This document shows positions 9,405-16,803 of a stretch of DNA of 34,246 nucleotides, piece by piece. The DNA comes from an uncultured Clostridia bacterium (GTDB lineage: Bacteria; Bacillota; Clostridia; TANB77; CAG-508), in assembly GCA_947626605.1 (NCBI GenBank), contig CANQSV010000016.1:1-34246 (forward strand), given 5' to 3'. The notes beneath the pieces are model-generated. The model made no database searches, was not told the origin of the DNA, and was given only the letters and a program-made list of their open reading frames with translations. Every line of letters starts with the position of its first letter. The stretch's first letter is position 1. The translations under genes and the position numbers were made by a program.

Positions 9405-9833
9405 TCATTTGAATAGATTTTTAATTTTTTTAAAGATTTTTGTGTACCATTTCTCATTTTCAGCTACAATCATATCAGTAGGTGTATTTTTCTCTTCATC
9501 AATCTCCTCATTATTTTTGAATATAACACTAGAATCAAAATTATTTATTTTTTCTAATTCTAATTTTTGAGTATTTAATTTTAGAATTTCCTCTACTCTT
9601 TTTCTTTCTTCATCAGATGCTACATAATCTTTATATAAATTAATTATTATCGCATCTGTTTTACGCATAGTTTTAGGATTTTTTACATCATATGAATATT
9701 CGTAATCTTTATTTTTATTCATCTCATAAAAGAAAATTATTTGTTTTGGTATTTTCTCATATTCTTGCTTTGGTATGTATTTTAATATTTCTAGCACTTC
9801 TACATAACTGTTTTCATATGTATCTTCCATCAT
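9405..9833 (-). CDS. Uncharacterised 142-aa cytoplasmic protein
   Basis: No family recognised with certainty. The first 70 residues form a compact block with LEILKYIPKQEYEKIPKQII, then a predicted helical region rich in Lys/Glu (about 70-100) and an acidic linker. The C-terminus is a short amphipathic basic segment (WYTKIFKKIKNLFK) that could associate with membrane. There is no signal peptide. It is third in a row of three closely spaced minus-strand genes (41 nt after the transglutaminase-like gene), so it probably shares their function. It is the only gene checked in this window that ends in TGA. Confidence 0.6.
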   Translation of the reverse strand: MMEDTYENSYVEVLEILKYIPKQEYEKIPKQIIFFYEMNKNKDYEYSYDVKNPKTMRKTDAIIINLYKDYVASDEERKRVEEILKLNTQKLELEKINNFDSSVIFKNNEEIDEEKNTPTDMIVAENEKWYTKIFKKIKNLFK

Positions 9834-9874: not shown

Positions 9875-11956
9875 CTATTCGTCTCCTTGAGTTTGTGTAT
9901 TCGCAGCCATCTTTTGTTCTTCATATGATTTCACTTCATTGCAATCAATTTCTACAGTATTTCCAAGTCTTGATATTGCTTGACCAGCTAAACTTTTTAA
10001 ACTAACTTCTTCTTCAAAGATTTTCTCTAATTCAGAAATCCTTTGCTCATAATTCTCCCTTGTAATTTCTTCTTCTAGTTTTCTATCACCAATTTCTGTT
10101 ATTCTTCTCCCTTTTTGCATACTAAACATTTTTTCAGGAGTACAAAGTATCCATTGACTTGCTTGCCATTCTGGTATATTACCATATCCGTCCCTTATAA
10201 AAACTTCTCTAGTAACATCTATAAACCTAATTTCTCCATCTAACCTTACCATATTCCATGCATGTCCACACTCACTAATTCCACCGACAGTTTCATTTTC
10301 AATTTCTAATTCATCAAGTGCTTTTTTTATTTCTTCTGAATAATGTTTGCAAACTCCTTTTTTTATCAATCCGTTAGTCTCTTCCTTCGGATGTTTTTTA
10401 TCTAAGTCTCTCATATTGCTTACTAAATTCTGAATCATATCCTCAAAAACAAAACCATTTATTTCTCCTGCTTCATTTTGCAAAGTTACTGCTGTTTTTC
10501 CAATTTTATCTGCTACATTTTTTAGATATTCCTCAAAAAAATCTGCAATTATACTTTCGTTTTGAGTATGTTTTTCCAATTCTGGCAACATTATATCTTC
10601 CCAAATTTTGAAAGCATATTGTACTCTATCTTCATCGGTTTGCAAACTACTCTCACTATTTTCTTCATTATTTAATTTTACTATTTGAGATAGTATTGGA
10701 TTATCTCCTTCATATGATTTTGATTTTCTTAAATATACTTGTAAGTTTTGTTGATCTTGATATGTTTTTGCTACTAACTGTGATTGATAACTGTCTGATT
10801 TTAATGGAATATCCTCAAAAAACACTTTTTCAACTCCATATGTACAAACTGCATCAAATAGCGTTTTATAATCATATTCTGCATTCTGCTTAAAATAGCC
10901 ACAAACAAATCTTATTTGTTCCTCTTGACTTTGCATTTTCTTAGCCTTTTCTATAAACTCCTCGTATGTTTTAATTCCACTATAATCATAACTTACCAAT
11001 TTATTTATATCATCAGAATATTCTTCATAATTTTTCTTTTGTATTAACATTCTTTCTGAATTACCTATGTGATATATTTCTCTTTCTGGTTGCATTTCAA
11101 ACATTTTCTCTATGCTTGTTCCTAACCAATCTTCTGGGTGTCCTTCTCTTTGTGCACCATATCCATCACGTTCAAAAGCCATATTAGTAGGATCAAAATG
11201 AATTAGTTCATCGCCTAATCTTATTATAGCCCATGCATGGGCTACTGTCCCCTTTCCACTAACTTCTTCACATGGAATTTTAAAATAATCACAGTATTTT
11301 TTTATAAAAGGTGCATATTGCATACATACCGCATTTTTCAATAAGCCATTTTCCATTCTGATGTATGGTTCATATACCTGCATAGCTCCACACTCTGTGC
11401 TTGTACCTTCTTTAATCTCTTTATATGAACTCAAATTGAGATTTTCATATTCTTTTTCTCCATTTTGAGTTTCTAATAATATTCCCACTAAATCTGCTAT
11501 TCTACGTGGTTTTGCGGGATTATGTTTGTTATTAATTCTAATTATCGATTTTCTTTCTTCTGAATTTGATTCTTTAGCAAAAGTTTCTTCATTTGCCTCA
11601 AAAATTACTCCATATTGTTTTCTTATTGCCGCCATTCTTTTTCTTAATGTTTCTTCCAAAAGCTCTTGCTTGTGAAATCTAACCGCCATTGTCTTTCTTA
11701 GATAATTTTCTACCTCTTGTAAAGCACCCTCTCTTTGGCTTTCATCCCACACATTATATCTTGACTGTATATCCATAAAAACTTCTTGGTCATAATTTGC
11801 ACTTTGCCCAAGAATATCTACAATTTCATATGCATAAGTTACATTTTCCATAAAATATTTTCCTAATAATTCTAGTCTTTCTTCGTTTGAATTTAACTTT
11901 TCTGCAATTGAAATTAATTCATCATATGTTTTTATTTCTTTTGTATCTATATCCAT
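9875..11956 (-). CDS. Large protein with two transglutaminase-like (TGc) domains
   Basis: The 693-aa protein has no signal peptide or TM helix, so it is probably cytoplasmic. It looks internally duplicated. Each half begins with a similar helical module (IKTYDELISIAEKL near residue 8 and IKTYEEFIEKAKKM near 328) followed by a Cys-His-Asp core. In the first half the residues are Cys211 (NAVCMQY), His240 (AHAW) and Asp255 (HFDPT). In the second they are Cys536 (GVCKHYS), His565 (GHAW) and Asp580 (FIDVT). Both triads match the transglutaminase/cysteine-protease superfamily, so both could be active peptidases or amidases. After each Asp comes a similar RDGYG...W motif and an EKMF.MQ block. The C-terminal 60 residues are coiled-coil-like and Glu-rich. 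It lies between a YcxB-like membrane protein gene and a small unknown. The substrate is unknown. Confidence 0.75.
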   Translation of the reverse strand: MDIDTKEIKTYDELISIAEKLNSNEERLELLGKYFMENVTYAYEIVDILGQSANYDQEVFMDIQSRYNVWDESQREGALQEVENYLRKTMAVRFHKQELLEETLRKRMAAIRKQYGVIFEANEETFAKESNSEERKSIIRINNKHNPAKPRRIADLVGILLETQNGEKEYENLNLSSYKEIKEGTSTECGAMQVYEPYIRMENGLLKNAVCMQYAPFIKKYCDYFKIPCEEVSGKGTVAHAWAIIRLGDELIHFDPTNMAFERDGYGAQREGHPEDWLGTSIEKMFEMQPEREIYHIGNSERMLIQKKNYEEYSDDINKLVSYDYSGIKTYEEFIEKAKKMQSQEEQIRFVCGYFKQNAEYDYKTLFDAVCTYGVEKVFFEDIPLKSDSYQSQLVAKTYQDQQNLQVYLRKSKSYEGDNPILSQIVKLNNEENSESSLQTDEDRVQYAFKIWEDIMLPELEKHTQNESIIADFFEEYLKNVADKIGKTAVTLQNEAGEINGFVFEDMIQNLVSNMRDLDKKHPKEETNGLIKKGVCKHYSEEIKKALDELEIENETVGGISECGHAWNMVRLDGEIRFIDVTREVFIRDGYGNIPEWQASQWILCTPEKMFSMQKGRRITEIGDRKLEEEITRENYEQRISELEKIFEEEVSLKSLAGQAISRLGNTVEIDCNEVKSYEEQKMAANTQTQGDE

Positions 11957-13183: not shown

Positions 13184-14065
13184 TTATTTGTATTCTTTTA
13201 TTTCTATACTTTCTATTACAACATCCTCTAGTGGTTTATCATTTGAATCTGTTTTTGTACTTGCTATTTTATCTACAACATCCATTCCTTCTATTACTTG
13301 TCCAAATACTGTATACTGTTGATATAAACTCATATATCCACCATATTTTTTATACATATCAATTATTCCTTGTGGAAATTGATAATATTCTTTAAGAAGT
13401 TGAGCTGTTTCTTCATTATAATGTGCTTGAGTTATAAAAAATTGGCTTCCTAATGATGAAGTTCCTGTTCCAGAACTTGCCATACATAAACTTCCTCTAT
13501 ATGGTAATATTTCTTCTGATAACTCTTCTTCAAAGCCTTTACCCCAAATACTTTCTCCACCATATCCTGTACCTAATGGATCTCCACCTTGTATCATAAA
13601 TTCATTTATAACTCTGTGAAATATTAATCCATTATAGTATCCATCTTTAGCATGAGTTTTGAAATTCTCAACTGCTTTTGGTGCTACATCATCAAAAAAT
13701 TTAACAGTTATATCTCCATATTTTTTTACATGTATTACTGCAATTGATTCTCCCTTTTTAGGTTTTGCCATTTGCTTTTCTGCATATTTTTCATAATCTG
13801 ATTTTTCAGTTTTAGAAGAATCATCCGTAGTTGTATTGTTATTTGTAGTTTCATTTTTTACTGTATTATCTGTTGTATTATTATCTACAGTATTGTTATC
13901 TGTTGTTGTGAAAGTTGCTTCATTGCTATTATTAGCTTTAGTTTCATCCCTACTTATTCTTTTACTTTCTGTATCTTTTCCGTTATTCATTACTAACACG
14001 ACTATTCCTCCTGTAATTAAAACAACAATTATAATTGCCAAAATGATTTTAATATTATTTTTCAT
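13184..14065 (-). CDS. Membrane-anchored cyclophilin-type peptidyl-prolyl isomerase
   Basis: Catalyses proline cis-trans isomerisation, here probably outside the cell membrane to help exported proteins fold. The 293-aa protein has an uncleaved signal anchor (TM at about 6-26), then a low-complexity Thr/Asn/Asp linker (about 30-95), then a cyclophilin domain. Active-site blocks are FHRVINEFMIQGGDP, FEEE and GSQFFIT, with VFGQVIEGMDVVDKI near the end. An insertion of about 35 residues (around QLLKEYYQFPQGI) separates the FFIT and VFGQV strands, as in many clostridial cyclophilins. There is no lipobox Cys, so it is a transmembrane protein rather than a lipoprotein. It is a single gene with its own AGGAGG site. 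Confidence 0.92.
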   Translation of the reverse strand: MKNNIKIILAIIIVVLITGGIVVLVMNNGKDTESKRISRDETKANNSNEATFTTTDNNTVDNNTTDNTVKNETTNNNTTTDDSSKTEKSDYEKYAEKQMAKPKKGESIAVIHVKKYGDITVKFFDDVAPKAVENFKTHAKDGYYNGLIFHRVINEFMIQGGDPLGTGYGGESIWGKGFEEELSEEILPYRGSLCMASSGTGTSSLGSQFFITQAHYNEETAQLLKEYYQFPQGIIDMYKKYGGYMSLYQQYTVFGQVIEGMDVVDKIASTKTDSNDKPLEDVVIESIEIKEYK

Positions 14066-14162: not shown

Positions 14163-14191
14163 TTGTATTTTTTCCATAAATATGCTATAAT
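14163..14191 (+). promoter_or_regulatory. Promoter of the orphan RNA
   Basis: TTGTAT (14163-14168), a 17-nt spacer and TATAAT (14186-14191) with an extended TGC. It points to the plus strand, where no ordinary gene follows. Confidence 0.7.
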
Positions 14192-14197
14192 AAAGTT

Positions 14198-14415
14198 AGG
14201 TCGGAACTGGTAAAGATGTTTACCCTCATGGCCAATACAAAAGCTCTTCAAACTAATTCTATTACACACATTGGATTTATATATCTGGGTTGATAAGAGA
14301 TCAACAAGGTTAGGTGTTTAAGTAATAGGGAAATAATTTTTAAAGGAGGATTTATGGAAGAGGTTATTTAGAAAGAACACGTCTTTGTTATGGTAAGATG
14401 TGTTCTTTCGTTTTA
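14198..14415 (+). ncRNA. Structured small RNA of about 215 nt, family not recognised
   Basis: A plus-strand transcript is bounded by a good promoter and an intrinsic terminator between two minus-strand genes. Visible helices: GGTAAA/TTTACC (14209-14224, loop GATG), a long-range stem CTATTAC/GTAATAG (14259-14265 with 14322-14328), and inside it GTTGAT/ATCAAC (14289-14305). These suggest a multi-branch fold. Near the 3' end AAAGGAGGA (14342-14350) precedes ATG GAA GAG GTT ATT TAG, a possible 5-codon peptide (14354-14371), and the terminator stem starts at the next base. It matches no riboswitch, 6S, SRP, tmRNA or RNase P motif that I know. The clostridial raiA motif should be tested first. Confidence 0.6.
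14372..14415 (+). terminator. Terminator of the orphan RNA
   Basis: AAAGAACACGTCTT pairs with AAGATGTGTTCTTT over 14 bp (one G-U), loop of 9 nt, followed by CGTTTTA. It begins at the base after the TAG of the 5-codon ORF. On the other strand it may help end the cadA transcript. Confidence 0.8.
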
Positions 14416-14450
14416 TGTATATCAAATTATTAAACAATCAACAAACAATA

Positions 14451-16433
14451 TTATTCTTTATAAATTCTAATAGCATTTAATATTGTTATTGTACTTACAC
14501 CAGTATCTGCTACTACTGCACTCCACATTGGCGCTATACCAAGAACTCCTAGTACTAATACTAAGAACTTTACGATTAGTGAAAATGCTATATTAAATTT
14601 TACAATTCTCATAGTCTTTTTTGCATCTTTTATACAATGAGGTATAATATCTATATTATTAGAGATTAGAATACTGTCTGATACATTATTTGCAATTTCT
14701 GTACCTTTTCCCATTGAAATTCCAAAATCAGAAGCAGCAATAACTGGTCCATCATTAATTCCATCTCCAACAAAAATAACTTTTTCGCTTTGTTTTAAAT
14801 CTTTTACGTTTTTCTGTTTATCAGCTGGCAATAGGTCTGCATATATTTCTTTTATATTTAACTCATTTCCGACTCTTTGTGCTTCTTTTAAATTATCTCC
14901 TGTCATCATAACAACTCTTTTTACGCCAACATTATTTAAATCTGTAACAATATTTTTATTACTACTCTCGATTTCATCTTTAAAACTTACATCAGCTACA
15001 ATACTCGTATCTACCACTAAATATATTGATCCTTCTTTTTCTGTAATATTATTACAATTAATTTTATAATCCTCTAAAAGTTTTTTATTTCCCAATATAA
15101 TTTGTTTGCCTTCTATTGTTCCGTATAAACCTTTTCCCGCTATCTCTTTATAATTTTCTACCTTTTGTTTAACTGCATCTTTCTTTAAATTTAAAATTGC
15201 ATAGCTAATTGGATGATTTGATAAACTTTCTAAACTAATCATATAGTTTATTGCTTTTTCTCTATCAAATTCTTCTATTACGTTTAATTTATCTACTTCT
15301 TTTTTACCTGTAGTTAGAGTGCCTGTTTTGTCAAAGCAAACAATTTTTATATTAGCTAAATCCTCTATATGTTTCGTTCCTTTTACTAAAAGTCCTCTTT
15401 TTGCCATAATTCCTACTCCCGCAAACATAGCCAAAGGAATTGATATTACTATACTACATGGGCATGATGCCACAAGAAAAATAAGACTTCTTTTTATCCA
15501 TATCTGATATGTAAGAAAACCTAAACTTGCAGGACCTATTGCTATTATTAATGCAATAATCATTACTATTGGAGTATAAATTTTAGAAAATTTGGTAATT
15601 ACATTTTCTGTTTTTCCTTTATTATTTACTGCTTCATTCACTAATTCAATTATTTGAGAAGCTGTTGAATTTTCTGCATCTTTTTCTACTTTGCACACTA
15701 TTGCACCTTCTGTATTTATACTTCCAGATAAGATTTCATCATTCATTTTTACTTTTCTCAATTTACTTTCGCCTGTTACTGCTGAAGTATCTAATTTTGA
15801 TTCACCAGATAAAATAGTACAATCCAAAGGAACTCTCTCACCAGGTTTTATTAATATTTTTGCTCCAACTTCTACTTCATCTGCATAAACTATTTTTGTT
15901 TCATTATCATTTATAAATAAATTTACATTCTCCTCTTTTATTTCAGAAATTTCTTGAATACTTTGTTGAGATTTTTCTAAAGTTTTTTCTTCTAGGAACT
16001 CTCCAAGCTTTGATAATAGGATTACAACTGCACTTTCCATATATTCTCCTAATACAAAAGCTGCTATAACTGCAATTGTCATCAAAGTAGTTTCTTCAAA
16101 GTTCAACTTAAATATATTTTTAATTCCTTCAAATATTATATCAATACCTGCCAATATAATAACAGCCCCAAAGCTAATAGCCTTTTGTTTTTCTGGTATT
16201 ATAAATATTGATGCAATAAATAAAATTATAGCTACAATGTATAATCCAATTTCTAATTTTGATATTTCTTCTTTTTCTTCATGATTACCATGGCAATGTT
16301 CACAACATCCATGACTATGTTCATGTTTGTGACTGTGCTCCTCATGCTCATGCTTGCAATCATGATGATTATGCTCTTGATTAATATTACATATACAATT
16401 ATATCTACCACACTTTTCACATTTTTGTCTCAT
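14451..16433 (-). CDS. cadA: Heavy-metal (Zn/Cd/Pb) exporting P1B-type ATPase
   Basis: Membrane pump exporting divalent soft metals with ATP. The 660-aa protein shows the ion-site motif CPC (324-326 in VASCPCSIVI), the phosphorylation site DKTGT (368-372), the HP motif (SNHP, 405-408), and GDGIND (556-561). The late TM segment ADTGVSTITILNAIRI keeps the Asp typical of Zn/Cd/Pb exporters. It has no ferredoxin-like HMA domain. Instead residues 1-50 are a Cys/His-rich tail (about 13 His and 8 Cys) that likely binds zinc or cadmium. The stop codon of the arsR gene is 1 nt before its ATG and its GGAGG lies inside arsR, so the two are translationally coupled. Confidence 0.93.
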   Translation of the reverse strand: MRQKCEKCGRYNCICNINQEHNHHDCKHEHEEHSHKHEHSHGCCEHCHGNHEEKEEISKLEIGLYIVAIILFIASIFIIPEKQKAISFGAVIILAGIDIIFEGIKNIFKLNFEETTLMTIAVIAAFVLGEYMESAVVILLSKLGEFLEEKTLEKSQQSIQEISEIKEENVNLFINDNETKIVYADEVEVGAKILIKPGERVPLDCTILSGESKLDTSAVTGESKLRKVKMNDEILSGSINTEGAIVCKVEKDAENSTASQIIELVNEAVNNKGKTENVITKFSKIYTPIVMIIALIIAIGPASLGFLTYQIWIKRSLIFLVASCPCSIVISIPLAMFAGVGIMAKRGLLVKGTKHIEDLANIKIVCFDKTGTLTTGKKEVDKLNVIEEFDREKAINYMISLESLSNHPISYAILNLKKDAVKQKVENYKEIAGKGLYGTIEGKQIILGNKKLLEDYKINCNNITEKEGSIYLVVDTSIVADVSFKDEIESSNKNIVTDLNNVGVKRVVMMTGDNLKEAQRVGNELNIKEIYADLLPADKQKNVKDLKQSEKVIFVGDGINDGPVIAASDFGISMGKGTEIANNVSDSILISNNIDIIPHCIKDAKKTMRIVKFNIAFSLIVKFLVLVLGVLGIAPMWSAVVADTGVSTITILNAIRIYKE

Positions 16434-16434
16434 A

Positions 16435-16803
16435 TTATCTGCCTCCTTCCTGAATGTGTTCTAATGCTTGAGATATTATTTGCTCTACATGCCCATCTTG
16501 CAAACTATAAAATACCTGTTTTCCTTCTTTTCTATATTTTACTAATTTTGATGTCCTAAGAATTTGTAATTGGTGTGATACTGTTGATTGATTTAACTTT
16601 AATAACTCACATAAGTCGCATACACACAATTCTGTATTTATAATTGCAAGTATTATTCTCAATCTTGTACTATCAGAAAATATTTTAAACATATCAGCTA
16701 AATCTATTATTTCTTCTTCATCTGGAGTTTTCATCTCTACATCTTTTATAACTTTATAATGTGGATATTTTTCTCCGCAAACAAAATCCTCCATTTTCAT
16801 CAT
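16435..16803 (-). CDS. ArsR/SmtB-family metal-sensing repressor of cadA
   Basis: Winged-helix dimeric repressor that leaves DNA on binding metal. The 122-aa protein has the HTH at about 55-90 (LCELLKLNQSTVSHQLQIL). Both classic metal sites are visible: an alpha3 site with ELCVCDLC (Cys60, 62, 65) and an alpha5 site with Asp103, His105, His116 and Glu119, the same spacing as the zinc site of SmtB. Having both resembles CadC/CmtR-type sensors that respond to Cd/Pb and Zn. GAGGAGAGG precedes two ATGs; the second (16800) has better spacing. It autoregulates with cadA through the operator at 16851-16872. Confidence 0.92.
   Translation of the reverse strand: MMKMEDFVCGEKYPHYKVIKDVEMKTPDEEEIIDLADMFKIFSDSTRLRIILAIINTELCVCDLCELLKLNQSTVSHQLQILRTSKLVKYRKEGKQVFYSLQDGHVEQIISQALEHIQEGGR

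Follow-up and report, generated by a model that had tools for sequence, protein, structure and literature searches.

The window analyzed here, a stretch of 34,246 nucleotides from an uncultured Clostridia bacterium, contains a short intergenic region between a divergent upstream gene for a cyclophilin (13184-14065) and a convergent downstream gene for a P-type ATPase (14451-16433). A preliminary description of this region, made from the sequence alone, had proposed an orphan structured RNA with its own promoter, a ribosome site, a five-codon ORF and a terminator. This raises the questions whether such an RNA gene exists, whether it belongs to a known family and how an ORF that ends directly on a terminator might work within it.

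Parts of the RNA gene and its relatives

Promoter, Shine-Dalgarno (SD) sequence, five-codon ORF and hairpin were all found where the preliminary description had placed them, and judged from sequence and comparison, positions 14163-14417 of the forward strand represent a stand-alone RNA gene with predicted expression (Table 1). The transcript probably starts at about position 14198. The terminal stem comprises 15 bp including the G of the TAG stop codon and 14 bp if counted from 14372. The predicted fold of the RNA scored better than those of dinucleotide shuffles (z = -3.1; 1 of 200 shuffles was as good). In a simple consensus scan the promoter and the terminator of the RNA did not rise above chance, owing to a short U-tract and a weak -35 element. 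Since such scans do not single out these two elements, the case for an RNA gene rests on comparison.

Table 1. Features of the putative RNA gene in the window.
Feature	Position	Strand	Description	Basis
TTATGTAAA	14150-14158	+	upstream of the promoter	
Putative promoter	14163-14191	+	-35-like TTGTAT 14163-14168, 17 nt spacer, -10 TATAAT 14186-14191	read from sequence
P1 hairpin	14199-14233	+	GGTC...GGCC, inner stem GGTAAA-GATG-TTTACC	fold and covariation
CUCUUC lock strand	14244-14249	+	complementary to GAAGAG 14357-14362, directly after AUG	
P2 domain	14258-14329	+	closing stem TCTATTAC 14258-14265 / GTAATAGG 14322-14329	folds
P2 inner hairpin	14289-14305	+	GTTGAT-AAGAG-ATCAAC	folds
Shine-Dalgarno sequence	14342-14349	+	AAAGGAGG	sequence, conservation
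Mini-ORF	14354-14371	+	ATG GAA GAG GTT ATT TAG (MEEVI*)	sequence, conservation
Terminator-like hairpin	14371-14409	+	stem 14371-14385 / 14395-14409, then GTTTTATG, to 14417	

A BLAST search of 56 related genomes returned one locus with 97% identity (G001) and, in three further genomes (G005, G013, G007), short matches covering mini-ORF and terminator. When read, these loci show the order of parts seen in the window. A search pattern that permitted synonymous codons and other stop codons was run on 385 genomes of the order and retrieved 13 loci, all of which carry exactly ATGGAAGAGGTTANNTAG. With a stricter pattern 27 loci were obtained from a named genome collection; this pattern fixed the codons and is therefore silent on codon invariance. 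All 27 lie in metagenome-assembled genomes titled Clostridia, Clostridiales, Clostridium sp. or Eubacteriales, several of them from the gut of rabbit, goat, sheep or deer. Merging and reading of the pattern loci gave 28 loci including that of the window. The set was then extended with a covariance model of the 3' module (R1), which added two loci in genus g29 (L129, L130; ATG GAA GAG ATG ATT TAG) and four in f4, another family of this order (L085, L086, L112, L113). Thus, 34 members are available, 30 from the family of the window (f1) and four divergent ones from f4. Shared architecture and R1 scores speak for a homology of the f4 members with those of f1, short of proof. Weaker R1 matches in other families, of which the better-scoring ones were read, were judged to be ordinary terminators or gene starts. 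The recurrence of the same order of parts in 33 further loci is the decisive evidence for the proposed architecture.

The occurrence of the RNA is patchy: by reading of the loci, about 19 of the 385 genomes of the order carry it. Within genus g29, the same downstream gene is found without the RNA in at least ten relatives whose loci were read and in two more judged by the extent of the match; the RNA must therefore have been gained or lost there. No member was found among 36 genomes of family f5, in phage or plasmid records or, by a pattern scan of IMG/VR, in viral contigs.

The preliminary description had considered a known clostridial family, namely the raiA motif, and had recommended a check for 6S RNA. 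Gathering-threshold and permissive scans with Rfam 15 gave only chance matches at the RNA itself; in the neighboring DNA a T-box and a tRNA were recovered. The raiA model RF03072 gave no hit in the region, neither above threshold nor at E<=10, and none in the genome, where the controls were equally silent, so that the genome scan is weak evidence for absence. 6S RNA (RF00013) is encoded by a separate gene in 12 of 12 member genomes tested (in G000 at C2:7058-7247). That a known family in disguise or a chance pattern accounts for the locus is hardly credible in view of these results and of 34 conserved members, even if a stand-alone structured RNA in Clostridia does recall raiA/ModT. A description of the RNA was not found in the literature; an unnamed listing in supplementary tables of RNA screens is possible. 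The RNA is hence a candidate for a new family, not in Rfam 15, within a large group of uncultured gut Clostridia. As a side observation, a T-box leader (RF00230, 108 bits; L003 1040-1256, reverse strand) lies near the RNA in G005.

Covarying helices and a predicted lock on the start codon

Comparison of the members allowed an assessment of each helix. In P1, seven of nine pairs are changed on both sides (28 alignment cells versus 7.6 in shuffled alignments, 0/500), and the covariation score of 0.556 was never reached by shuffled alignments (0.277; 0/500). The terminal hairpin is paired in 95% of the cells, 57 of which are changed on both sides (18.7 shuffled; 0/500). Its basal G-C pair is invariant in 21/21 aligned sequences, and the basal G is the G of TAG, except where TAG is followed by an additional G, which then takes this place. 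In all members the stop codon abuts the terminal stem, forms its base or lies in the hairpin. Since the U-tracts are short in many members, termination is only predicted.

The long-range pair that the preliminary description had seen closing a branch corresponds to the P2 stem with its enclosed inner hairpin. P2 was judged sequence by sequence, as MAFFT gave no alignment of it across genera. The stem is present at the same place in all 17 long f1 members with differing sequences. It begins 2-8 nt after CUCUUC and, with few exceptions, stops about 12-15 nt short of GGAGG; the P2 span alone is not unusual when compared with shuffles. In the 13 short f1 members a short linker replaces P2, and CUCUUC lies 28-40 nt before the SD. 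The latter reads (A)AAGGAGG in nearly all f1 members, with a spacer of 4-6 nt to AUG.

In most f1 members the promoter is composed of TTGACA or TTTACA, TTATGTNAA and TATAAT, and its position relative to P1 is the same. The possibility that TTATGTNAA is a lineage-specific operator was rejected, as the element is common in promoters of the order with unrelated downstream genes. Across the 12 genomes of the order that were scanned, TTATGTNAA-N5-8-TATAAT occurs about 4-13 times per genome, which clearly exceeds the controls with reversed patterns; the combination represents either a lineage-typical promoter form or the site of a shared regulator. At six loci (L046, L053, L058, L061, L062, L070), moreover, the promoter directly upstream of the RNA is spanned by inverted repeats, for example TAGCATACTT...AAGTATGCTA, whose half-sites change jointly between species (CATAC/GTATG, CACAC/GTGTG, CACTTTG/CAAAGTG).

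The helices of the preliminary description are present; the most conserved internal pairing, that of CUCUUC with GAAGAG, had been overlooked. Each of the 30 f1 members has a single CUCUUC in its RNA part, followed by U in 26 of them, and no search pattern had required it. GAAGAG, which follows the AUG, is its exact complement. In the window this lock helix is predicted with a pairing probability of 0.94 in the full RNA and of 0.99 without the 3' hairpin. Partition-function folding of 29 of the 30 members from the inferred start gave values above 0.5 for 26/29 full RNAs and for 27/29 RNAs without the 3' hairpin; the lock is only weakly predicted in L034 and L057. When CUCUUC was scrambled, the predicted mean openness of AUGGAAGAG rose from 0.15 to 0.49. 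Folding of the alignment lengthens the lock to eight pairs (CUCUUCUA/UGGAAGAG), including the UG of AUG. According to these models the lock is predicted to hide the start codon while the SD remains largely open. Small RNAs usually block initiation by pairing in the first five codons (PMC7769764). Covariation cannot test the lock helix, since both strands are invariant. A CUCUUC lock was not recognized in the four f4 members, and the lock is therefore not universal even if f4 is homologous. Instead, a long-range stem seems to precede the SD directly in these members.

Translation, neighboring genes and mode of action

Is the mini-ORF conserved as a reading frame or as RNA? All 30 f1 members share ATG GAA GAG, followed by GTT (28 members) or ATG (two), a codon ANN and TAG (30/30). 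At the 13 loci found with the permissive pattern, codons 2-4 and the stop codon are without synonymous variation (only GAA GAG GTT ... TAG) while the sequences of P1, P2 and the hairpin vary, from which a constraint at the RNA level in f1 follows. The lock accounts for GAA GAG, not for GTT. One could thus imagine a riboregulator that is not translated, in which AAGGAGG-N4-6-AUGGAAGAGGUUA binds a protein, the 30S subunit or an antisense RNA and the frame is incidental; the invariance of AUGGAAGAGGUUA-NN-UAG, obtained in an unbiased search, goes beyond the needs of a peptide, and this region spans about one 30S footprint. We regard this as rather unlikely, because bases change in f4 and yet the length of the frame, Met-Glu-Glu/Asp and the stop codon at the hairpin are kept, and because the g29 members alter codon 4 with the frame intact.

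The f4 frames read MEESSM with TAG, MEESSM with TAA, MEDSSM and MEEILK with TAA. The changes among these four members comprise a synonymous one (TCT to TCA), a replacement of Glu by Asp and a swap of TAG and TAA at constant ORF length, and each member has an SD and a stop codon abutting or inside the hairpin. The ORF length is fixed at five codons in f1 and at six in f4, and the SD is suitably spaced from the start codon. As the bases differ in f4 while frame and stop are kept, the mini-ORF is probably read by ribosomes. This conservation of the frame is the best evidence that argues for translation, drawn from four sequences and presupposing the homology of f4. SD, start, short ORF and stop are conserved with frame-keeping changes, as would be expected of a translated minigene, in f4 and g29, where few sequences are informative.

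Such an RNA might be made solely to be translated. The strong SD, the ORF of five or six codons and the hairpin would then cause slow early elongation with drop-off of peptidyl-tRNA or sequestration of ribosomes, and tune the availability of ribosomes or of tRNA-Glu/Val. Short minigenes are known bacterial regulators (PMC8708949), the ORF invariably has five or six codons starting with Met-Glu-Glu/Asp, and the hairpin, which begins at the stop codon, would by general ribosome geometry come to lie directly in front of the entry channel when a ribosome initiates. This explanation is unlikely all the same: it leaves the invariant CUCUUC, the covarying P1 and the exact codon conservation unexplained, and the occurrence in only some genomes of the order suggests a dispensable RNA.

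Neighboring genes were compared with regard to a function in cis. No neighboring gene is common to different genera. The downstream gene is mostly convergent, and at a few loci it is co-directional or missing. Read from their protein sequences, the downstream genes in f1 are unrelated (asnS, valS, mnmA, greA, acyl-CoA synthetase, P-type ATPase). Because the neighbors differ between genera and are mostly convergent, the sequences exclude a role as cis leader for most members. A conserved co-directional gene downstream of the terminator, which marks a leader-peptide attenuator acting in cis, was not found, and the combination of promoter, 3' hairpin and covarying helices without a cis gene is, at the sequence level, that of a stand-alone structured small RNA. 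The four f4 members adjoin and converge with an apparent C-terminus of release factor 2 (prfB). In the window, the P-type ATPase gene lies directly downstream of a gene for an ArsR-family regulator (14451-16803, reverse strand), the two probably forming a metal-efflux pair, and two ORFs on the reverse strand (9875-11956, 693 aa; 9405-9833, 142 aa) gave no Pfam match at E<=0.001.

The preliminary description had also put forward a free-standing, attenuator-like RNA, which agrees with the lack of a conserved downstream gene and with a stop codon fused to the terminal hairpin. With the stop codon abutting or within the stem in all members, it is physically possible that the position of a ribosome decides on terminator formation. 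In one version, translation would block the terminator and read-through would produce an antisense RNA over the downstream gene, which ends just past the terminator and is usually convergent, with the apparent prfB end in f4 as an example. We consider this version quite improbable, as the f1 downstream genes are unrelated and not always convergent or present, and as a hairpin flanked by A and U tracts can simply be shared by two convergent genes.

Our best reading, held tentatively and at somewhat less than an even chance, is a stand-alone small RNA operated by ribosomes, in which translation of the mini-ORF would act as the trigger. At rest, (UG)GAAGAG would be paired with CUCUUC (often CUCUUCUA), which would cover the start codon and codons 2-3, and the SD, located in the junction that separates P2 from the lock, would remain largely open. 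A ribosome that loads and translates the five-codon frame would pull the lock apart and, since the stop codon belongs to the hairpin, also melt the base of the latter, so that CUCUUC would be freed and/or the 3' end disturbed. The invariance of CUCUUC suggests that it may have a partner in trans as well. What the sequences themselves show is the set of conserved parts, covariation in P1 and in the terminal hairpin, and the lack of a conserved cis gene; the lock helix is predicted, and translation, unlocking by ribosomes and a trans-acting output we infer. That the RNA is a free-standing riboregulator with the ribosome as its ligand, whose translation frees CUCUUC as a trans seed and opens the terminal hairpin, and which would report the capacity for translation initiation, appears doubtful. 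If ribosomes do operate the RNA, nature would here provide a clear example of a trans-acting RNA whose input is translation itself. With an invariant lock of 6 nt and a frame of five codons, the RNA lends itself to simple tests by point mutation.

Comparison with known systems

The RNA combines a leader-type mini-ORF with a stand-alone small RNA, which are normally found apart. The raiA motif or ModT is a stand-alone structured RNA of about 200 nt from Clostridia with a SigA-type promoter and a 3' hairpin (PMC11706538). The present RNA resembles it in being stand-alone and structured, in its promoter and 3' hairpin and in its clostridial origin; it differs by the lack of any match in sequence or structure and by carrying an SD and a five-codon ORF. 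In the leader-peptide attenuators of trp and his operons, a short ORF with an SD lies just before the terminator, and a ribosome at the stop codon prevents folding of the terminator. The same arrangement is seen here, and a stop-bound ribosome would have the same effect; in contrast, our RNA stands alone without a conserved downstream gene, shows invariance at the RNA level and has a predicted lock on the start codon.

Bacterial minigenes such as lambda bar have a strong ribosome site and a translated ORF that is very short. The same applies to the axe-txe minigene (PMC8708949). A strong ribosome site and a very short, probably translated ORF recur in our RNA; unlike in the minigenes, the ORF is here part of a conserved RNA structure, with helices that covary, a predicted lock, and a promoter and terminator of its own. 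SR1 and RNAIII are dual-function small regulatory RNAs that contain a translated ORF. The present RNA is likewise a small RNA containing an ORF; its frame, however, has only five to six codons and is fused to a lock and a terminator. As for the small RNAs that act within the five-codon window (PMC7769764), pairing to codons 1-3 should block binding of the 30S subunit; here, however, the blocking strand is provided in cis by the same RNA, and only the five-codon frame is blocked.
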